From positions 1 through 49,237 of the IMG/VR virus record IMGVR_UViG_3300032288_001331: a stretch of 49,237 bases of DNA; one strand, 5' to 3'. Both the position numbers and the translations under genes were made by a program. The DNA is from a virus. The notes below the pieces were generated by a model, which was given only the letters and a program-made list of their open reading frames with translations, did not search any database and was not told the DNA's origin. Positions 3,495 to 45,101 of this stretch are shown one piece after another (position 1 is the first letter of the stretch; each line of letters begins with the position of its first letter).

Positions 3495-3913
3495 TGTTAG
3501 ACTGTTTGGTTATGGGTGACAGCATTGCTGTTGGCATTGGTCAAGCAAGACCTGATTGTTTTACAGTCGCTAAAGTTGGTATAAGTAGTGATAAATGGTT
3601 CAATCAATACAATCCTAAACTAGATAAACAGTTTAAGGTTGTTGTGATTAGTCTTGGTACAAACGACTACTATGGTGTCACAGCCGAGTATCTATATAAA
3701 ATTAGAAAGAACGTGAAAGCCAACGCTGTCGTCTGGATTCTTCCAAGCTATTCATTAAAACCAAAACAAAGAGTTATAATTCGAGAAATCTCAAATGAGT
3801 TTGGTGACAAGGTACTTGATATAACCGAACACATTGGTAGAGACGGTATTCACCCACCATCACTAATTGAATATAGAAAGATTGGTGATAAAATTCGCAA
3901 ATTGGGGCCGTAG
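3494..3913 (+). CDS. small SGNH/GDSL-type hydrolase
   Basis: A 139-residue minimal SGNH-fold protein. Visible blocks are GDSIAVG (nucleophile Ser10), GTNDYY (block III Asn near 57) and DGIHPP (catalytic Asp/His near 117-120). The family removes acyl groups from sugars, lipids or peptidoglycan. The minus-strand hub gene at 46091-48214 carries a similar domain. There is no signal peptide, so this copy would act in the cytoplasm or in the virion. The stop codon TAG is made by bases 8-10 of tRNA-Ala, the same arrangement as the RlpA-like gene and tRNA-Asp. Confidence 0.75.
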   Translation: MLDCLVMGDSIAVGIGQARPDCFTVAKVGISSDKWFNQYNPKLDKQFKVVVISLGTNDYYGVTAEYLYKIRKNVKANAVVWILPSYSLKPKQRVIIREISNEFGDKVLDITEHIGRDGIHPPSLIEYRKIGDKIRKLGP

Positions 3914-3979
3914 CTCAGTTGGGAGAGCGGTAGCTTTGCAAGCTTCAGGTCTGCGGTTCGATCCCGCACGGCTCCACCA
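3904..3979 (+). tRNA. tRNA-Ala (TGC)
   Basis: Acceptor GGGGCCG/CGGCTCC contains the G3-U70 pair that identifies alanine tRNA. D stem GCTC/GAGC, anticodon loop TTTGCAA (TGC), T arm TGCGG-TTCGATC-CCGCA, A73 and encoded CCA. Overlaps the end of the SGNH gene by 10 nt. Confidence 0.93.
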
Positions 3980-3999
3980 CTTAAAGAAAGAAGAAGAAA

Positions 4000-4125
4000 A
4001 TGCAAATCACTCCATCAAAAGTTTATCGTAAAACAGAAGCGGCTTGGAATCTAGCTTGGGTATTTGGTCTGATCTTTTGGATGCCAATCCTAGCGATGGC
4101 TTTCTTAGCCTACTTCGTAAACTAA
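4000..4125 (+). CDS. 41-residue membrane protein
   Basis: A very short gene between two tRNAs: MQITPSKVYRKTEAAWNLAW then a hydrophobic stretch (VFGLIFWMPILAMAFLAYFV) forming one membrane helix, ending VN. The ribosome site is AAAGAAAGAAGAAG. Its stop lies 2 nt before tRNA-Leu. Function unknown; a single-pass microprotein with an N-in topology is likely from the basic N-terminus. Confidence 0.55.
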   Translation: MQITPSKVYRKTEAAWNLAWVFGLIFWMPILAMAFLAYFVN

Positions 4126-4126
4126 C

Positions 4127-4203
4127 GCCCTTGTAGCCCAATTGGTAGAGGTATCAGTCTTAGAAACTGAGGGTTGTCCGTTCGAATCGGACCAGGGGCA
4201 CCA
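4127..4203 (+). tRNA. tRNA with anticodon TAG (Leu), class I shape
   Basis: Acceptor GCCCTTG/CAGGGGC, perfect anticodon stem TCAGT/ACTGA with loop CTTAGAA (anticodon TAG, codon CTA), T arm GTCCG-TTCGAAT-CGGAC, A73 and encoded CCA. The variable loop is only GGGTT, whereas bacterial leucine tRNAs normally have a long arm. The D stem is short (GCC/GGT). Confidence 0.82.
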
Positions 4204-4217
4204 ATTCAGAGGTTGTT

Positions 4218-4688
4218 ATGATCCATATAATTGATAATTTTTTCAATGACCATCTTGATGAAGCGAAGGACTGGTCTTCTTCGCTGAACAAATATGATAC
4301 ATGGTATGACAAATACAGTCTCGACCTTGGACTAAATCTCGTGGCCAAAGCTGGTGAGTTCTTTGATCTGACTGGTTTCTCTGGCTGCGAGATGCACATC
4401 AACTATCACACTCCTACCCGTCACTACGACAAAGATGAAGTTCTGTTTGCAGGAACGGGCAAACTGGTTTTTCCATTGTGTGGCATCGTTTGGTATAAAC
4501 ACATAGATATGATAGGTGGTGAAATTGTTTTTCCTGAAGTTGGTGTCAGCATCATGCCGAAAACCGACAGATTAATCATCTTCAAAGGTGATCTGTTGCA
4601 TCAAGGAAATCCATTTCAGGGAGTGAGATTGTCTGTGGGTATTAACCCATGGTTGGAGAAACCATTAGCATATGCTGTCTTAGTGTAA
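4218..4688 (+). CDS. 2-oxoglutarate/Fe(II)-dependent oxygenase-like protein
   Basis: A 156-residue protein with a compact double-stranded beta-helix pattern. Candidate iron ligands are HYD in TRHYDKDE and the distal His in GDLLHQGNPF, followed by an Arg in VRLSVG that would bind 2-oxoglutarate. GGEIVFPE is the usual strand between them. Such phage enzymes hydroxylate proteins or nucleobases; the substrate here is unknown. ATG 4218 follows CAGAGGTTGTT. The last 15 bases, including the TAA stop, lie within tRNA-His. Confidence 0.7.
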   Translation: MIHIIDNFFNDHLDEAKDWSSSLNKYDTWYDKYSLDLGLNLVAKAGEFFDLTGFSGCEMHINYHTPTRHYDKDEVLFAGTGKLVFPLCGIVWYKHIDMIGGEIVFPEVGVSIMPKTDRLIIFKGDLLHQGNPFQGVRLSVGINPWLEKPLAYAVLV

Positions 4689-4747
4689 TGGTAGCACCCG
4701 AGTTTGTGGATCTCGGAGCGTTGGATCGTAACCAACAGACAGTACCA
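4674..4747 (+). tRNA. tRNA-His (GTG), no G-1, A73
   Basis: Acceptor GCTGTCT pairs with AGACAGT (first pair G-U), D stem GTGT/GCAC, anticodon loop TTGTGGA (GTG), T stem GTTGG/CCAAC, A73 and encoded CCA. The base before position 1 is T and the discriminator is A, so the usual G-1:C73 histidine mark is missing. The T loop ATCGTAA is unusual (A54 and T58 rather than T54 and A58). Confidence 0.85.
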
Positions 4748-5247: not shown

Positions 5248-5952
5248 ATGGAACATCAATACGTTTCTAATGCTTATGAAGCCAATTTGAAGTATGATGA
5301 AGGTCTACGAAACTTCATGCTTCAAGTCTATAACTACATGACTGTTGCTCTTGCTCTGAGCGGTCTTGTTTCTCTCGGTGTCTCAATGTCACCAGCACTT
5401 ATGGCGACCATCTGGGCAACACCATTGAAGTGGGTTGTAGTTTTTGCACCATTAGTCATGAGTGTTGGTTTTATGTTCATGGCCGAAAAGATTAGTTCTT
5501 CTGGTGCTAAGGTTTTTCTATTCGCATTTGCCTTTGCGATGGGTCTTAGCCTGAGTTCTATCTTTGCAATCTATAAGATGGGTAGTATCGTTCAGGTATT
5601 CTTCATCTCTGCGGCCACTTTTGGTGCAGCCTCAATTTATGGTTATACAACTAAGAAAGACTTGACTTCTTTTGGTTCTTTCTTGATTATGGGTGCCTTG
5701 GGTCTTGTCATTGCTGGTGTTGTCAATCTGTTTCTACAGAGTTCGGTGTTTGCGTTCGCTATTAGCTGTCTTGCTGTTCTGATCTTTACTGGTCTGACAG
5801 CCTATGACACTCAGCAAATCAAGAGCCATTATGACTACAGCGAAGGTGACGAAAGAGAGAAGGCTGGTGTAATTGGTGCGCTTCAGTTGTACCTAGACTT
5901 TATCAACATCTTCGTCAGCCTGCTTCAGATCATTGGTGATAAGAAAGAGTGA
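5248..5952 (+). CDS. Bax inhibitor-1/YccA family membrane protein
   Basis: A 234-residue protein with seven hydrophobic helices, the length and shape of bacterial BI-1 family proteins (YccA, YbhL). Family marks include the N-terminal FMLQVYNYMTVALALSG, the internal YGYTTKKDL between helices 4 and 5, FTGLTAYDTQQIK and the end LYLDFINIFVSLLQIIG. In Escherichia coli YccA is a substrate and inhibitor-like modulator of the FtsH protease. A phage copy could protect new viral membrane proteins or shift lysis control; this is inference. Ribosome site TTAGGAGTAAATA. It ends in a GTGA overlap with the next gene. Confidence 0.88.
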   Translation: MEHQYVSNAYEANLKYDEGLRNFMLQVYNYMTVALALSGLVSLGVSMSPALMATIWATPLKWVVVFAPLVMSVGFMFMAEKISSSGAKVFLFAFAFAMGLSLSSIFAIYKMGSIVQVFFISAATFGAASIYGYTTKKDLTSFGSFLIMGALGLVIAGVVNLFLQSSVFAFAISCLAVLIFTGLTAYDTQQIKSHYDYSEGDEREKAGVIGALQLYLDFINIFVSLLQIIGDKKE

Positions 5953-6170
5953 CAGAATCCGTATTTGCTAGGCGAAAGCGAATAGCCGACCTCAGGTTGG
6001 CTATTTGTGCTTCATGTGAATATTTTACAGCCAGCATAAGCAGGTGTCGGGCCTGTGGTTGTGTAATGGTATTCAAAGCAATGTTACCTGATTCTGATTG
6101 CCCATTCAGAAAATGGGATGAGATAAATAAACTAGAAGCCGAAAAGGAGAAGACTGATGGCATCGGATGA
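5949..6170 (+). CDS. small Cys-rich zinc-ribbon-like phage protein
   Basis: A 73-residue protein with CASC, CRACGC and a later CPFRKW: the five or six cysteines would bind one zinc. This pattern (IC..C, RC..CGC, CP..KW) is common to a small phage protein of unknown role. The start is GTG 5949, overlapping the BI-1 stop by 4 nt; a later in-frame ATG would remove the first CxxC. Confidence 0.7.
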   Translation: MTESVFARRKRIADLRLAICASCEYFTASISRCRACGCVMVFKAMLPDSDCPFRKWDEINKLEAEKEKTDGIG

Positions 6171-6609
6171 ATTAATTGAAAAGTCCAAGAAGTGCCTTGG
6201 TAATACTTTTGTATATTATATGAAAGCACACAGTTATCATTGGAATGTCATTGGTCCTGACTTCCCTCAGTTACATGATTTCTTTGGTGATCTTTACGAA
6301 GAACTTCACGGTTCTCTCGACACGCTTGCAGAAGGTATCCGTACATTGGATTCTTTTGCTCCTTCTACACTCGGTCGTATGATTGAATTGGCTGATGATA
6401 TTCAAGAAGATGAAAAGATTCCACAGCCAGCGAAGATGGTCACAAACCTTCTTGATGCAAACGATAAACTCTATAACTGTATCCAAGAATGCTATACGAT
6501 GGCAGAAAACGAAAATGAATTTGCCATTTCAAATCTTTTACAAGATCGCCTACAAACCCTCGCAAAGCATCGCTGGATGTTGAAGGCTCTGGCTGGCCAG
6601 AAATCATAA
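6157..6609 (+). CDS. Dps-like ferritin-fold protein
   Basis: A 150-residue four-helix protein. The ferroxidase motif of Dps is clear: HSYHWNVIGPDFPQLHDFF...YEELHGSLDTLAEGIRTL, giving His at the first helix and Asp/Glu of the neighbouring subunit. Dps dodecamers oxidise and store iron and can bind DNA. A phage copy may protect the replicating DNA from oxidative damage, or supply iron for the 2OG-type oxygenase; these are inferences. Ribosome site AAAAGGAGAAG. Overlaps the previous gene by 14 nt and is followed by a palindrome and a terminator. Confidence 0.82.
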   Translation: MASDELIEKSKKCLGNTFVYYMKAHSYHWNVIGPDFPQLHDFFGDLYEELHGSLDTLAEGIRTLDSFAPSTLGRMIELADDIQEDEKIPQPAKMVTNLLDANDKLYNCIQECYTMAENENEFAISNLLQDRLQTLAKHRWMLKALAGQKS

Positions 6610-8970: not shown

Positions 8971-11900
8971 ATGGCTAATTCGACAAGACCACCAGGCGTG
9001 GCATTCTATGGTAAAGTCAGAATACCTACCATAGGTCATAAAAAAGCAATAGAAACGGCAGCAAGTATCGCCAAGAAAACTGGCGGCCAACTTCGTATCG
9101 GTCTATCTGGCGCCTCTCATCCCCTTACAATCGAAACTAAAAAAGCCCATGCTGAGATGGTCTTCGGTCATCCAGTAGAGACTGGCGTACCTCACACCTC
9201 TAATCTCTTTTCATATCTTTCACACCTTCATCAACACCACGATGAGATACATCTGGTGGCTGGTTCTGACCGCGCACCTGAGTATCGCAAGACGCTTCAG
9301 CAATGGAATGGCAAGGCTGACAGGAACGGAAAAGTTGCTTTCAACTTCAAGAAATGGAAAGTTCACGAAGTTGAAGGTAAGCGTGAAGATGTTGACAAAC
9401 ATCCTACACAGATGAATAGAGATGAACTAGAACGTTCAGTCAGTGCCACTAAAGTAGAAGGTCTAGCTAAAGCAGGTGACTATGAAGGTTTCAGAGCCTA
9501 TCATCCTGGTCTACCCGAAAAGCATGTTAAAAAAGTATACAATCAGATCCGCATGGCGCCTTCTGAAGCACCAAAACCAAAGTCTGTAAAGGCTATCAAA
9601 GCTAAGGTCGTCAAAGAAGAAGAATCTCACGCCGAATACTGGCAAAAGAATCCACCACCTGAAAGCGCAATTACAAGAGCAGCCAGCAATCTACCTGTTA
9701 TCTCACAGGCCAAAGCAATCAAGAGTGCTGTCGATAATGTACGTCAAGGTAATTATGGAAGTGCGGCTTTAGATATTGCTGCTGAGATTCCAAAAGTAGG
9801 TGCTGCTGTTGGTGCTGCAAGAGGTGTCGCTGCTGCACTAAGAGAAGATCAGGTTGATAGTATTGGTGAACTTGACCATGAAAAGTTTGGGCCAATGCTC
9901 GACACATTTGTTCAGTTTGCATCGAAGAAACTTGGCATCAAATCAATGCCAACGATGCAACTACAAAAAGGTGAAATGGAAGCCTCAAGTTTCGGTGGTT
10001 ATAATCCACAAAATCAGTCCATTGTTGTAGTATCAAAGAATCGTCACCCAATGGATATCTTCAGAACAGTTGCACATGAACTTGTGCATCATAAGCAGAA
10101 AGAAGATGGTCGCATTGGCAAAGATATTTCCAATGAAGGTGCTACAGGAAGTCCCTTCGAAAATGAAGCCAACTCAGAAGCAGGAAAGATCATGCGCTGG
10201 TTTGGTCAAAAAAATCCTGAACTATTTAAGTCAGGTTATGTGGTCGAAGAAACACAACTGACAGAAGGCATCAATGATCCAGGTACATTCAAAGCTGTAT
10301 TCTTAGCCGGTGGTCCTGGTTCTGGTAAAGACTTTGTAATGAAGCAGACACTTGATGGTATGGGTCTGCAAGAAATCAATTCGGATGTTGCGTTTGAATA
10401 TCTAATGAAGAAGGCTGGTCTTGATTTTAAGATGCCTGAATCAGAAAGAGTTGAACGTGATATTGCTCGCGGTAAAGCAAAGAAACTCACCAAAGAGCGT
10501 GAGCGTCTTGCTCTTGCTGGTCGTCGTGGTTTGATCATCAACGGTACAGCCGACGATCCAGAAAAGATTGCATCAATCAAAAAAGAATTAGAAGCTCTCG
10601 GCTATGATACAATGATGGTATTTGTCAACACCTCAGATGAAGTATCAAAGTCTAGAAACGTATCACGCGGTGAAGAAGGTGGCAGAACTGTTCCTGAAGA
10701 TATCCGTAAAGACAAGTGGGATGCTGCACAGAAGGCCAGACCTGTATTCGAAAAGTTATTTGGTAAAGATAACTTTGTAGAAGTTGATAATAGTAATGAT
10801 CTACGCAAAGCTTCGCCTGAAGTTAAGAAAAAAGTTGAAGGTGAGTTTCAATCTATTTTTAAGATGGCCAAGAAGTTCGTTGCTCGTCAACCAATCGAAA
10901 ATGAAAAAGCTGCTGGTTGGATGCAAAATGAAATACAAAAACGCAACATGCAGTCATTTGTTCCTGCTAGTGCAACAGCATTCGGTACAGGTTCAGTTCA
11001 GCGTGGTGCTGTTCAATCAGTTGCATTGCCAAGCGATCAAGATGCTACACAAACCACATCACAAGCACCAACAACCGATGAAATTTCTCAAGCACAGCGT
11101 CTTGGTCTGACATACTATGGCTTTGGTCGCTATGGTACGACAATAAAAGGAAAACATACCGTGACTTATATCAGTCAAAACGGCAAACTAGTTCCTAAAC
11201 AACAACAAGTAGCCGAAGACCTTCGTAAGTGGTTTGATCCAAAACATCCAGAAGGTGGATGGAAGAGAATCAATTCTAAAGGTGAAGCAATTGGTCCTTG
11301 TGCAAGAGAGCCAGGTGAACCAAAGCCAAAATGTATGTCAAATGAAAAGAGAGCGAAACTCTCAAAGAAAGAAAGAGCATCTGCTGTTGCAGCAAAGCGC
11401 AAGCATGATCCAAATCCAGAAAGAAAAGGTGCACCTATCAACGTTTCAAACTTTGGTAAAGGTAAAATAGATGAGGCTAATGCGGCAGCTATTGCAGCCG
11501 CTACAGCAATAGCAAAGAAGAAATCTGGTAACTATGATAAAGATGGCCTGAGAGTAAAGCCATATAAAAATCCTGATGCACCAAATGTAAAATCAAATGA
11601 AGAGAGAAGAAGAGAAATGAAAAAAGAAGAATATCTTCAGGAGAAAAATGTGCCTACAAATCCAGAATTGTGGGCTCGCGCCAAGTCAATGGCCAAATCT
11701 AAGTTTGATGTTTATCCTTCAGCCTATGCAAATGGTTGGGCTGCAAAGTGGTATAAGTCAAAAGGTGGTGGTTGGAAAACTCAAGCAGATGAGAGTTTCG
11801 AACACATGGTCAACGAAAACAAACCATCAGATCGTGAGTTCGGTACAACAAGTCTTGCAAATATTTACAAAGCTTCAACACCAGGTCAAACTTTCCCTGC

Positions 11901-12615
11901 AAATCCACTTTCAGAAAAGATGGGTAAGAAAAAGATCATGAAGAAGGCTAAGAAGTTAGCTCAAGAAGATAACTCACTCGCACTAGGTTATGAGTTCGGT
12001 AACAACGGCATTGGTCAGGAGTTTGGTGTTGTTCGCTCACCTAACGGTCTTGGTTTTGGTTATTCTCTACCAATGGATGGTGGTGCATATAGACTTTCCG
12101 AATCGGTGCAGAACTGGATGAATAAAGAAAGCACAATCGAACGTTATATTTCAAAGTATGGTGAACAGGCTGAACGCAAACTATATGAAGCTGCTGTTCG
12201 TCTTAGCCAACTTGAAGAGACGAACAGTGGTGCAAAAGGTTTCGATGGTCTTCGCGAAGCATGGGAAGCACTCGGTGGTCGTGACATGGGAACTGTTGCA
12301 AAACAAGGTAGCAAAGAAGAAGTTGAAGAAGAAAAGAGCCCCGCATGGACTCGCAAAGAAGGTCAGAATCCAGAAGGTGGTTTGAATAAGAAAGGTATCG
12401 CTTCATATCGTCGCGAGAACCCAGGTTCTAAACTTTCTCTGGCCGTAACAACAAAGCCATCAAAGCTCAAGAAAGGTTCTAAAGCTGCAAATCGTCGCAA
12501 GTCATTCTGCGCCCGTATGGGTGGTATGAAGAAGCGTTTGACTTCTGCTAAGACGGCCAATGATCCAGATTCAAGAATTAACAAAGCCCTCCGCAAATGG
12601 AATTGCGAGGAATAA
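8971..12615 (+). CDS. giant multidomain protein: nucleotidyltransferase, metalloprotease, P-loop kinase and phage modules
   Basis: A 1214-residue fusion. Residues 1-190: cytidylyltransferase/NMN-adenylyltransferase-like domain with PTIGH (about 19-23), GSDRAPEY and the closing VSATKVEG (about 158-165). Residues 300-420: zinc metalloprotease-like domain with HELVHH (369-374). Residues 435-640: P-loop kinase of the polynucleotide-kinase/zeta type, GGPGSGKD with Lys453, then LIINGTADD and VFVNTSDE strands. Residues 750-820: a phage module with KWFDPKHPEGGWKR, GPCAREPGEPKPKC and KKERASA. Residues 894-935: PTNPELWARAKSMAKSKFDV module. Residues 1124-1214: AWTRKEGQNPEGGLNKKG...FCARMGGM module. Acid/lysine-rich linkers join them. 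In related phages these modules occur separately. It may be a virion polyprotein cut by the prohead protease (LTE near residue 430 is one possible site); that is a hypothesis. Confidence 0.85.
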   Translation: MANSTRPPGVAFYGKVRIPTIGHKKAIETAASIAKKTGGQLRIGLSGASHPLTIETKKAHAEMVFGHPVETGVPHTSNLFSYLSHLHQHHDEIHLVAGSDRAPEYRKTLQQWNGKADRNGKVAFNFKKWKVHEVEGKREDVDKHPTQMNRDELERSVSATKVEGLAKAGDYEGFRAYHPGLPEKHVKKVYNQIRMAPSEAPKPKSVKAIKAKVVKEEESHAEYWQKNPPPESAITRAASNLPVISQAKAIKSAVDNVRQGNYGSAALDIAAEIPKVGAAVGAARGVAAALREDQVDSIGELDHEKFGPMLDTFVQFASKKLGIKSMPTMQLQKGEMEASSFGGYNPQNQSIVVVSKNRHPMDIFRTVAHELVHHKQKEDGRIGKDISNEGATGSPFENEANSEAGKIMRWFGQKNPELFKSGYVVEETQLTEGINDPGTFKAVFLAGGPGSGKDFVMKQTLDGMGLQEINSDVAFEYLMKKAGLDFKMPESERVERDIARGKAKKLTKERERLALAGRRGLIINGTADDPEKIASIKKELEALGYDTMMVFVNTSDEVSKSRNVSRGEEGGRTVPEDIRKDKWDAAQKARPVFEKLFGKDNFVEVDNSNDLRKASPEVKKKVEGEFQSIFKMAKKFVARQPIENEKAAGWMQNEIQKRNMQSFVPASATAFGTGSVQRGAVQSVALPSDQDATQTTSQAPTTDEISQAQRLGLTYYGFGRYGTTIKGKHTVTYISQNGKLVPKQQQVAEDLRKWFDPKHPEGGWKRINSKGEAIGPCAREPGEPKPKCMSNEKRAKLSKKERASAVAAKRKHDPNPERKGAPINVSNFGKGKIDEANAAAIAAATAIAKKKSGNYDKDGLRVKPYKNPDAPNVKSNEERRREMKKEEYLQEKNVPTNPELWARAKSMAKSKFDVYPSAYANGWAAKWYKSKGGGWKTQADESFEHMVNENKPSDREFGTTSLANIYKASTPGQTFPANPLSEKMGKKKIMKKAKKLAQEDNSLALGYEFGNNGIGQEFGVVRSPNGLGFGYSLPMDGGAYRLSESVQNWMNKESTIERYISKYGEQAERKLYEAAVRLSQLEETNSGAKGFDGLREAWEALGGRDMGTVAKQGSKEEVEEEKSPAWTRKEGQNPEGGLNKKGIASYRRENPGSKLSLAVTTKPSKLKKGSKAANRRKSFCARMGGMKKRLTSAKTANDPDSRINKALRKWNCEE

Positions 12616-40273: not shown

Positions 40274-41490
40274 AGACCTTCAAACAATATATCACAGAGA
40301 TGGCCTCGTCTGTTGAAGATGAGGCTCTCGGCCATCTAACACATGTCAAAGATATTGCACATGAAGAGCCACGTTTTGGTGGGCTCTCTCATGAACTTCT
40401 CACAAAGTTTCATCAACATCGTATGGGTCAAACACCTGAAGGTTTTGGTGCAAGTCTAAAGCACGATGGTGGTGCATCTGTTCTTATAAGCCACGATGAA
40501 CATGGCGTTGGTATCACAGATAAACACCGTGAAAAGCGTGGTGTTGTGGCTCGAACTGATGCTGATATTGACAAGCATTTCGGTCATGCACCAGGATATG
40601 CCGCAGGTCTGAAACATCTTCTCAAACATGGTCATGAATTGGTGCCTAAAGGTAAAAAAGTTCAAGGTGATCTTCTGTTCACACCAGGTGACGGAACAAC
40701 AGAAGTACATGGAGAACACACTCACTATACACCAAACAGAATTACAGGCAAGGCTAAGACAAGAGCACCTATTGGCATTGCAATTCACACAGAAGTTAAG
40801 AAAGGTGTTGCTCAGTCTCTTGGTAAAGGAGCAATCAAGAAAACTCCTAACATCTTCGTTCCTCATCACGACTATAACAAGCCAGATCCTTCGACATATT
40901 CCGCAGAAGATCGTAAGGCTGTTGAGCATCATCTTGCCAAAGCGAAAGAAATGTTAGATAATCATACCTCGGAGCATCTAACGCCGGAACATATTCAGCA
41001 ATTCACTATCTATAATAATCGCACAACTCGCGCTGGTACGACACCTAGCAGAGCCGGTTATATCAAGCATCTTGAAGGTGAACGTGACAAGGCCGCAGGT
41101 AAGTTGAAGACAGAAAAAGGTAGAGCAAGGGTTCAAGCACAATATGGATCTATGATACAGCATGTGCATAATAATGCTGAACACTTTGATCGTTCGATTG
41201 GAATTCGTCATCATCTTGAACAGGCCACGGAGCATTTACTGAAAGGTGTTTCACACCCTGACATCGAAACGTCAATCGACGGTAAGAAATCCGCAGGTGA
41301 AGGCGTTGTTCTTCAACAGAAAGATGCCAAGGGTAGAATGAGACCTGTAGGCAAACTTGTACCAAAGGCTGTATCGAAGGCTCTTCTGAATAATCCTAGA
41401 TTTGGTCGAGAAGAACTCAAAGAGAATATCATGAACATTATTGAAAGAGTGAGAAGTGAAAACATTCAACTACAAAGAGGGATTGCCTGA
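40270..41490 (+). CDS. KxDG ligase/nucleotidyltransferase-like protein with capsid-targeting-like N-terminus
   Basis: A 406-residue protein. The core resembles the covalent nucleotidyltransferase superfamily: motif I LKHDGG with Lys64 and Asp66, a motif III-like VQGDLLF (about 132-138), motif IV GEGVVL (about 343-348) and motif V GKLVPK (about 361-366). These enzymes form a lysyl-AMP and ligate RNA or DNA ends. The middle is His/Lys-rich. The first ten residues, MKTFKQYITE, match the T4 capsid-targeting peptide with Glu10 for gp21 cleavage. Start is GTG 40270, overlapping the upstream stop. I infer a packaged ligase; substrate unknown. Confidence 0.75.
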   Translation: MKTFKQYITEMASSVEDEALGHLTHVKDIAHEEPRFGGLSHELLTKFHQHRMGQTPEGFGASLKHDGGASVLISHDEHGVGITDKHREKRGVVARTDADIDKHFGHAPGYAAGLKHLLKHGHELVPKGKKVQGDLLFTPGDGTTEVHGEHTHYTPNRITGKAKTRAPIGIAIHTEVKKGVAQSLGKGAIKKTPNIFVPHHDYNKPDPSTYSAEDRKAVEHHLAKAKEMLDNHTSEHLTPEHIQQFTIYNNRTTRAGTTPSRAGYIKHLEGERDKAAGKLKTEKGRARVQAQYGSMIQHVHNNAEHFDRSIGIRHHLEQATEHLLKGVSHPDIETSIDGKKSAGEGVVLQQKDAKGRMRPVGKLVPKAVSKALLNNPRFGREELKENIMNIIERVRSENIQLQRGIA

Positions 41491-42136
41491 GTTGCAGTCC
41501 CTTCCTACCGAAGAGATCGGTGGGAAAAGATATTATATAACACCTAACGGCAAGAAACTACCTTCAGTTACTACCGTTCTTGGTCATTTCAAGAAAGAAA
41601 AGATCAATGAGTGGCGAAACCGAATTGGCCACGAAGAAGCCCAAAAGATTTCCACCCGTGCCTCAATCCGTGGCACGAAATTCCACAATATGCTTGAAAA
41701 GTATGTCAGCAATGATCGGACATTGTTCGAGAATGTTATGCCTGATATGAAACAAGCTTTCTACAATATTCAACCCACACTTGACAGGATCGACAATATA
41801 CATTATATTGAAAGCCCTCTTTGGTCAGAAAGGCTTGGTCTTGCAGGTAGAACAGATGTCATCGGTGAATTTGACGGCACACTTTCTATCATCGACTTCA
41901 AGACCTCTCTAAAAGAAAAGAAAGAAGAATGGATTGACAACTACTTTGAACAAGGAACGGCCTACTCACTCATGTATAAAGAAAGAGTTGGTAATCCTAT
42001 TTCACAAGTTGTCATTATTATCTCCGTTGACAATATCACAGAGCCACAAATCTTCATAAAGAAAACTTCTGACTATGTGGACTCACTCATAAAGAAGATT
42101 TGGCTCTATAACAAGGAACACACAAATGTACGTTGA
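41456..42136 (+). CDS. Cas4/RecB-like PD-(D/E)XK exonuclease
   Basis: A 226-residue protein. The nuclease motifs are LGLAGRTDVIGEF (first acidic residue), LSIIDFKTSLKEKKE (D-x-K) and the following YFEQGTAYSLMYKE helix, the Q...Y motif of the RecB/Cas4 family; HNMLEKY in the N-terminal half completes it. No Fe-S cysteines are present, unlike true Cas4. T4-like phages use such proteins in recombination. Start is GTG 41456, in a 35-nt overlap with the ligase-like gene. Confidence 0.82.
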   Translation: MKTFNYKEGLPELQSLPTEEIGGKRYYITPNGKKLPSVTTVLGHFKKEKINEWRNRIGHEEAQKISTRASIRGTKFHNMLEKYVSNDRTLFENVMPDMKQAFYNIQPTLDRIDNIHYIESPLWSERLGLAGRTDVIGEFDGTLSIIDFKTSLKEKKEEWIDNYFEQGTAYSLMYKERVGNPISQVVIIISVDNITEPQIFIKKTSDYVDSLIKKIWLYNKEHTNVR

Positions 42137-42326
42137 TCTTTGGGTTTTTGGTATCTTCGCAGTTCTCTTTGGTGTCTGTGCAGTATGGAATCGTATGAGA
42201 GGCATCACACAAGGCATTGAGGCTACACTAGACAAGTTAGAGAGTGACAAGATCATTGAGATTATCGGTGATGATATCATCCCATATCGCCGTGATATTC
42301 GCCGCCGTAAGAAGAAGCTGGCTTGA
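42126..42326 (+). CDS. small membrane-anchored protein
   Basis: A 66-residue protein with one N-terminal membrane helix (LWVFGIFAVLFGVCAVWN) and a charged tail ending in a basic stretch (YRRDIRRRKKKLA). The ATG lies 11 nt inside the previous gene. Its stop overlaps the tmRNA promoter -35. Function unknown. Confidence 0.6.
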   Translation: MYVDLWVFGIFAVLFGVCAVWNRMRGITQGIEATLDKLESDKIIEIIGDDIIPYRRDIRRRKKKLA

Positions 42327-42353
42327 CTTTCAAAGAACAATATGCTATAAATA
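42323..42353 (+). promoter_or_regulatory. dual promoter: sigma70-like and T4-late-type TATAAATA
   Basis: TTGACT (42323-42328), 17-bp spacer and TATAAA (42346-42351). The same -10 reads as a perfect T4 late box TATAAATA (42346-42353). Either or both can start just before the tmRNA acceptor piece (about 42360). Confidence 0.75.
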
Positions 42354-42359
42354 ATATGC

Positions 42360-42424
42360 TTAGGTCGTTGAGGCGTATAGAATAAACGTATCGGACGCGG
42401 GGGCAGTACCCGCCGCCTCCACCA
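42360..42424 (+). ncRNA. ssrA: tmRNA, acceptor piece (permuted)
   Basis: Contains the 3' end of a tmRNA located upstream of the coding piece. GGAC, T arm GCGGG-GGCAGTA-CCCGC (42397-42413), acceptor strand CGCCTCC (42414-42420) and ACCA (42421-42424). CGCCTCC pairs with GGGGGCG at 42521-42527, the third pair being the G-U that AlaRS needs. The T loop differs from TTCRA as in alphaproteobacterial tmRNAs. The 5' end is estimated. Permuted order defines the two-piece type. Confidence 0.85.
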
Positions 42425-42520
42425 CAAGCACAGATAGACGATATGTTGGCTAGCGGTGCGCAACTAGCTGGAATATACGAGACAAAGTTACTCTTGCGGG
42501 AGTTATTCTGTGCTTTTGAT
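42425..42520 (+). ncRNA. intervening segment of permuted tmRNA precursor
   Basis: 96 nt between the CCA end and the 5' end of the coding piece, presumably removed during maturation. I see no coding sequence of its own; the open frame across it is only the tag frame extended upstream. Confidence 0.55.
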
Positions 42521-42690
42521 GGGGGCGAAATAGGATCGACGAGCGCAGTAAAGATGCGAGGAGACCGAAAGCAACGTTTAGATGCAAACGATAATGCACC
42601 AATCGCAATGGCACTAGCTGCCTAAGCATGAGTTTTCGGTGGGTTTGACTTGGAAACAGAATAAACCCACCACTCACACAAACACATGAG
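42521..42690 (+). ncRNA. ssrA: tmRNA, coding piece with tag ANDNAPIAMALAA
   Basis: Starts GGGGGCG (acceptor 5' strand), then a D-like GATCGACG. The tag frame runs from the resume codon GCA 42584 to TAA 42623-42625: Ala-Asn-Asp-Asn-Ala-Pro-Ile-Ala-Met-Ala-Leu-Ala-Ala. ANDN is the alphaproteobacterial tag start and the LAA end is the ClpXP degron. A strong hairpin follows (GGTGGGTTT/AAACCCACC, about 42639-42672). 3' end estimated. It rescues stalled ribosomes by adding the tag to the nascent protein. Confidence 0.88.
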
Positions 42691-42698
42691 GTTACATT

Positions 42699-42935
42699 AT
42701 GGCTAAGACTCCATTTGAAATCCGACTAGACCTTCTACAAATGGCTAACGGCATTCTCTCCGATAAGAATTGGGCTGAACGCAATCGTATCGAAAACGAT
42801 TGGAACACTCAGCGCGATATTGCCATGAAAAGTGAAATCATCAATATTCCTCCAGCGCCATTTGTACCATCCGTCAACGAAGATGAAATCATCACTCTCG
42901 CTAAGAAGCTGAATGAGTTTGTCTCCAATGGCTAA
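42699..42935 (+). CDS. small conserved T4-like phage protein
   Basis: A 78-residue protein (MAKTPFEIRLDLLQMANGILSDKNW) of a family found in many T4-like phages near genes 33/59. Helical start and Pro-rich centre (INIPPAPFVPS). No known function. Start ATG 42699 follows GAGGTTACATT; overlaps gp33 by 8 nt. Confidence 0.72.
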   Translation: MAKTPFEIRLDLLQMANGILSDKNWAERNRIENDWNTQRDIAMKSEIINIPPAPFVPSVNEDEIITLAKKLNEFVSNG

Positions 42936-43155
42936 CAGAGAAGAAATCACCACATTCTCTCTTGCTATTGAAATGATGGCCAAAGAGAAGAACACATCCT
43001 ACATGGATGCAATCATTCTATACTGTGAAAACACAGGGCTTGAAGTTGAAGTCGCAGCCAAGATGATCTCTGGTGCTTTGAAATCGAAGATCAAGATCGA
43101 AGCAGAAGAACTAAACTTTCTACCTAAATCTAACACAACGAAGTTACCACTATGA
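42928..43155 (+). CDS. 33: late-transcription coactivator, gp33-like
   Basis: A 75-residue protein. MSYMDAIILYCENTGLEVEVAAKMISGALKSKIKIEAEELNFLP-type segment is the late-coactivator signature (SYMDAI...CE..G.....A.LIS..LK.KI..EA..LN.LPK). T4 gp33 bridges RNA polymerase and the gp45 clamp so that gp55 recognises TATAAATA. It matches the late-type boxes in this window. ATG 42928 precedes MANREEITTF; the upstream TTG is ignored. ATGA overlap with the next gene. Confidence 0.82.
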   Translation: MANREEITTFSLAIEMMAKEKNTSYMDAIILYCENTGLEVEVAAKMISGALKSKIKIEAEELNFLPKSNTTKLPL

Positions 43156-45072: not shown

Positions 45073-45101
45073 TTGACAGAACGAGATTGTTCTGTTATTA
45101 T
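45073..45101 (+). promoter_or_regulatory. consensus sigma70 promoter with spacer palindrome before gene 32
   Basis: TTGACA (45073-45078), 17-bp spacer, TATTAT (45096-45101). The spacer contains a perfect 7-bp inverted repeat ACAGAAC/GTTCTGT (45076-45082, 45089-45095), which also covers the -35 end. Confidence 0.85.

Follow-up and report, generated by a model that had tools for sequence, protein, structure and literature searches.

A permuted two-piece tmRNA gene of T4-like phages with predicted overlapping early and late promoter signals

The permuted two-piece transfer-messenger RNA (tmRNA) is the alphaproteobacterial form of ssrA (RF01849), and it is active in Caulobacter (PMC3985003). A two-piece phage tmRNA upstream of gp33 is also already known, being annotated in two T4-like isolates. 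In Methylophilales phage Melnitz (2022), a permuted tmRNA of the alphaproteobacterial type lies between an exonuclease gene and gp33 (PMC9004378), and the SsrA of Pelagibacter phage Mosig (MT647606) stands in the order PD-(D/E)XK nuclease, open reading frame (ORF), tmRNA, gp33. Mycobacteriophage DS6A carries a tmRNA as well, but this one lacks a tag frame and is reported to be inhibitory in E. coli (PMC11915505). Here we describe the tmRNA gene of IMG/VR virus record IMGVR_UViG_3300032288_001331, a 49 kb fragment of a T4-like phage (the window; 49,237 nt). The gene is complete, circularly permuted and in two pieces (approximately 42363–42672, + strand), and is a genuine, intact member of the kind already described. 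Its promoter region, which combines predicted early and late signals, looks new.

ARAGORN and two Rfam covariance models concur on the identity of the gene. ARAGORN places a permuted tmRNA* at 42332–42716 with the tag ANDNAPIAMALAA, tmRNA_permuted (RF04321) matches 42363–42625 with 106.6 bits (gathering score 47), and alpha_tmRNA (RF01849), the model that an earlier sequence-only reading of this DNA had named as the check on its proposal of a phage-borne, alphaproteobacterial-type two-piece tmRNA, matches with 127 bits (E 2.2e-34; gathering score 50). The acceptor (3′, amino-acid) piece is encoded 5′ of the coding piece and spans 42363–42424 (+), with the T arm and an encoded CCA ending at 42424. 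It is followed by an intervening segment of 96 nt that is predicted to be excised (42425–42520, +) and by the coding (5′) piece (42521–42672, +), which contains the acceptor strand GGGGGCG (42521–42527), the tag frame and a 3′-terminal hairpin (42638–42672). GGGGGCG and its partner CGCCTCC form seven pairs, including G3-U70, just as the sequence-only reading had described. The same reading had set the CCA end at 42424 and the coding start at 42521, both of which stand, and the 3′ end at 42690, which was a guess; this end is uncertain, as the Rfam match stops at 42671, and the last pair of a 10-bp hairpin falls near 42672. The tag frame, ANDNAPIAMALAA followed by TAA (42584–42625, +), has a resume codon, a stop and a hydrophobic LAA-type end, and is identical whether taken from ARAGORN or read directly, in agreement with the sequence-only reading. 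The locus folds better than 100/100 shuffled sequences (z −3.9). Besides the tmRNA models, no other Rfam family, riboswitches included, was found in 42280–42760 at E ≤ 1, whereas a predicted glutamine (glnA-type) riboswitch is reported for Melnitz (PMC9004378).

The acceptor helix is strongly conserved across phage and bacterial tmRNAs. All seven pairs form in 81/82 distinct phage tmRNAs and in 76/76 bacterial ones among the sequences parsed, with a parser that picks the CCA end giving the best pairing, and G3-U70 is invariant in both sets (82/82 and 76/76). Pairs 5 and 6 show compensating changes that retain the helix. The phage genes share with alphaproteobacterial ssrA the permutation, this helix, G3-U70 and an ANDN-type tag, but differ in the loop between the pieces, which has a median of 86 nt in phages and 28 nt in the bacteria. 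In the window, the ends of this segment, AAGCACAGA and TCTGTGCTT, form 9 bp in the predicted fold that extend the mature acceptor helix. Across 62 phages, such ends pair better with their own partner than with the ends from other phages (p 1e-24), which would be expected of a precursor destined for trimming.

The sequence-only reading had also suggested that the phage re-tuned the RNA and has a tag of its own, and the survey of bacterial genomes agrees with the second of these. The exact tag ANDNAPIAMALAA followed by TAA is encoded in no genome of an 84,980-species collection, in a scan confined to this stop codon. Of the tags carried by other contigs of the viral set, three also occur in sampled bacteria. 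A bacterial scan with a short DNA pattern for ANDNAP-type tags gave no tmRNA by ARAGORN among the matches listed. Melnitz differs in its tag (ANDNYVPVDYALAA), while the 39 nt of the window tag are identical in two related phage loci (L113 and L127), where the stop codon differs and identity to the window gene over the full tmRNA is no more than about 76%. Of 62 distinct phage tags, 53 end in LAA. Synonymous changes did not demonstrate purifying selection on the tag, as copies that share a tag are too similar or diverge solely at the stop codon. Phage tags are longer (median 14 aa) than those of high-scoring alphaproteobacterial tmRNAs (median 12 aa); we rejected tag length as a viral hallmark, given that low-scoring bacterial tmRNAs have tags longer still. 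Two other two-piece phage tmRNAs (L036 and L080) have 10-aa tags that are not of the ANDN type, ANDERFALAA and ANDEVYALAA, and might point to phages that infect a different group of hosts.

Directly upstream of the tmRNA transcription unit lie signals of two kinds. A −35 box, TTGACT (42323–42328, +), overlaps the stop codon of a 66-aa ORF upstream and is followed after 17 nt by TATAAATA (42346–42353, +). The first six bases of the latter, TATAAA, fit a sigma70 −10 box, and the resulting TTGACT-17-TATAAA has 10/12 matches to the sigma70 promoter with a spacing within 16–18 nt. A simple promoter scan missed it because that scan requires T at the last −10 position. At the same time, TATAAATA is the T4 late-promoter box, for which cyanophages have NATAAATA (PMC2984593), so that one site would serve as both an early and a late promoter, as the sequence-only reading had supposed.

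This prediction is supported by comparison with related phages. Among 53 non-redundant T4-like phage loci, 42 have NATAAATA upstream of the tmRNA (2.95 expected), 36 have a sigma70 promoter that matches at 10/12 positions or more (1.99 expected), and 30 have both (0.14 expected; none of 300 simulated sets exceeded 2), with expectations drawn from first-order Markov sequences and with counts that are not independent events, since the loci are related. Bacterial control loci show the late box in 2/96 and both boxes in 0/96 (Fisher p 3e-24). The two boxes in the 30 loci are offset by 0 nt in 19, 3 nt in 10 and 5 nt in one, and TTGACA, TTGACT or TTTACA stands exactly 17 nt 5′ of TATAAATA in 20/53. 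Melnitz itself carries TTGACA-17-TATAAATA upstream of its tmRNA, although only the early promoter was reported there (PMC9004378). It has 25 TATAAATA sites (12.4 expected). Many of these directly precede structural genes, and just two, one being that of the tmRNA, come with a −35 box of 5/6 or better. The other (MZ577095.1:10904), whose −35 box matches at 5/6 positions with a spacing of 17 nt, precedes a gene at 10951 for a hypothetical protein. In a 167 kb relative (G042), such a −35 box accompanies 3/37 TATAAATA sites: before the tmRNA, at 110128, and before gp32, the position of which was taken from locus coordinates. The gp32 promoter of this relative, TTGACA-17-TATAAATA, has the same early-plus-late design as that of the tmRNA, and in the window a strong sigma70-like promoter, TTGACA-17-TATTAT, precedes gp32 (45073–45101, +). 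Overlapping early and late promoters were proposed as a “middle” mode in RB49 and S-PM2 (PMC2984593), T4-like phages without MotA in which both signals stand on one gene. There, however, they serve homologues of T4 middle genes, whereas here they precede a tmRNA and the boxes are mostly coincident or 3 nt apart. We found no report of a composite early/late promoter on a tmRNA in the literature searched, and its presence on the tmRNA across many related phages looks new.

The sequence-only reading had further held that the tmRNA was captured by this phage, a wording that our data do not support. The order phoH, exonuclease, tmRNA, gp33, gp59, gp32, with short ORFs between, is found in dozens of T4-like contigs as well as in Melnitz and Mosig. 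The gp33 proteins of the syntenic contigs are mostly only 33–76% identical to that of the window, and the DNA similarity between Mosig and the window is short only. In the window, the conserved locus is limited upstream by the exonuclease gene (41456–42136, +; phrog_298, E 6e-70). The tmRNA is followed by a 78-aa ORF without a Pfam or PHROG match in profile searches (42699–42935, +), whose homologues lie downstream of the tmRNA in relatives, and then by the gp33-like late-transcription coactivator (42913–43155, +; PF16805, E 4e-21; phrog_254, E 2e-20). Between the tmRNA and the 78-aa ORF, the + strand has no terminator-like site listed. In cyanophages P-HM1 and S-ShM2, gp33 and the exonuclease gene overlap with no tmRNA between them, and the tmRNA has therefore been gained or lost at this junction. 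Of the 54 T4-like phage tmRNA cores placed in one tree with 86 alphaproteobacterial ones, long branches being removed, 51 fall in one supported group apart from the bacterial cores, and a single clade of all phage tmRNAs is not rejected (p-AU 0.57); with few alignment columns and a non-exhaustive bacterial sample, the tree is support, not proof, for one viral lineage. Together with the shared synteny, it suggests that the tmRNA is carried by an old viral lineage. That the tmRNA was captured recently from the present host, for instance by way of a prophage lodged in the host's own tmRNA gene, is accordingly very improbable: integration often occurs at tmRNA genes, and temperate-phage transfer has been discussed for Melnitz by Buchholz et al. 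(PMC9004378), yet the phage tmRNAs group apart from the bacterial ones, and occupy the same gene place across divergent phages, and no integrase was found among the window ORFs scanned, on which ground we also rejected a prophage remnant. Distances between tmRNAs correlate positively but modestly with those of gp32, gp59, exonuclease and PhoH (Spearman 0.20–0.35; 0/999 permutations as high). Strict co-inheritance with the neighbours is rejected by this weak to moderate correlation, and some exchange of the tmRNA between phages is likely.

We consider it probable (about 0.8) that the gene is a working viral ssrA of the permuted, two-piece alphaproteobacterial type that sustains trans-translation throughout infection of a T4-like phage. 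Several observations weigh against this. The window tmRNA scores 127 bits on the bacterial model, compared with 143–313 bits for the alphaproteobacterial over-cutoff matches listed, and its function may therefore be altered. The promoter signals are not universal, as 12/53 phage loci have the late box only, six the sigma70 promoter only and five neither. Within the window, TATAAATA is not significantly enriched (3 vs 1.44 expected), so that support for the promoter is comparative. The low model score would also suit a decaying or silent remnant, but the acceptor pairs, G3-U70, CCA, tag frame and promoter are all retained, and the 39 nt of the tag are kept unchanged in two relatives that have diverged elsewhere in the tmRNA, which makes decay the least probable of the alternatives. 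An interfering tmRNA is somewhat easier to envisage but still unlikely. Such a molecule would mainly compete with the host tmRNA for SmpB, alanyl-tRNA synthetase (AlaRS) or ribosomes, or give nascent proteins a new mark that is interpreted in another way by host proteases; the inhibitory DS6A tmRNA, the absence of the window tag from the sampled species and the longer phage tags would fit it. However, the window gene keeps a full frame ending in LAA, as do most of the distinct phage tags, and length alone is no viral mark.

The function proposed for the gene rests on its anatomy and on the known activity of the two-piece tmRNA in Caulobacter (PMC3985003). Early in infection, host RNA polymerase with sigma70 would initiate just upstream of 42363, and late in infection a gp55/gp33-type phage machinery would use the same TATAAATA; gp55 is annotated in Melnitz. 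The precursor would fold, host tRNA-processing enzymes would excise the 96-nt loop, and host AlaRS would charge the acceptor piece through G3-U70. A search for SmpB in the window and 32 further phage records, of which several are incomplete, found none, and the host partner presumably serves in all 33. With host SmpB and EF-Tu, the tmRNA could then, from early to late infection, free ribosomes that have stalled on broken mRNA. The added tag would be (A)ANDNAPIAMALAA, leaving proteins that end in AANDNAPIAMALAA, with an LAA end that would suit ClpXP-type host proteases. The sequence-only reading had proposed ribosome recycling or redirection of proteins to ClpXP, both of which are plausible; the phage would presumably benefit.

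The genes of this T4-like fragment include those for gp33, a gp59-type loader, gp32, a baseplate hub protein, PhoH, a primase, ribonucleotide reductase and thymidylate synthase. By gp32, the closest isolates are cyanophages at about 59% identity, and a megablast of 25 kb against phages gave no match. Seven tRNA genes (Asp, Thr, Ser, Gly, Ala, Leu, His) lie in the first 5 kb (403–479, 1769–1941, 2258–2331, 3904–4203 and 4674–4747). A 234-aa protein (5248–5952, +) matches Bax1-I (PF01027, E 8e-60), an integral-membrane family unexpected in a T4-like core, and is followed by a ferritin-like (Dps-type) protein (6157–6609, +; PF00210, E 1e-20). A 1214-aa protein (8971–12615, +) begins like a cytidylyltransferase, is ATPase/kinase-like in its middle and ends in a tail common to several PHROGs of unknown function.

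Although phage tmRNAs are known, their role in infection is guesswork in the literature that we found. We tentatively suggest, as a less probable extension of the scheme above, that a viral lineage runs its own trans-translation all through infection, from an overlapping sigma70/late promoter that would have the tmRNA transcribed with gp33 past the late switch, and with tags unseen in sequenced bacterial species that may alter the fate of tagged proteins. The combined early and late promoter signals of 30/53 relatives predict expression throughout infection, and they bear on the proposal made for Melnitz that the tmRNA acts early, sparing viral proteins.
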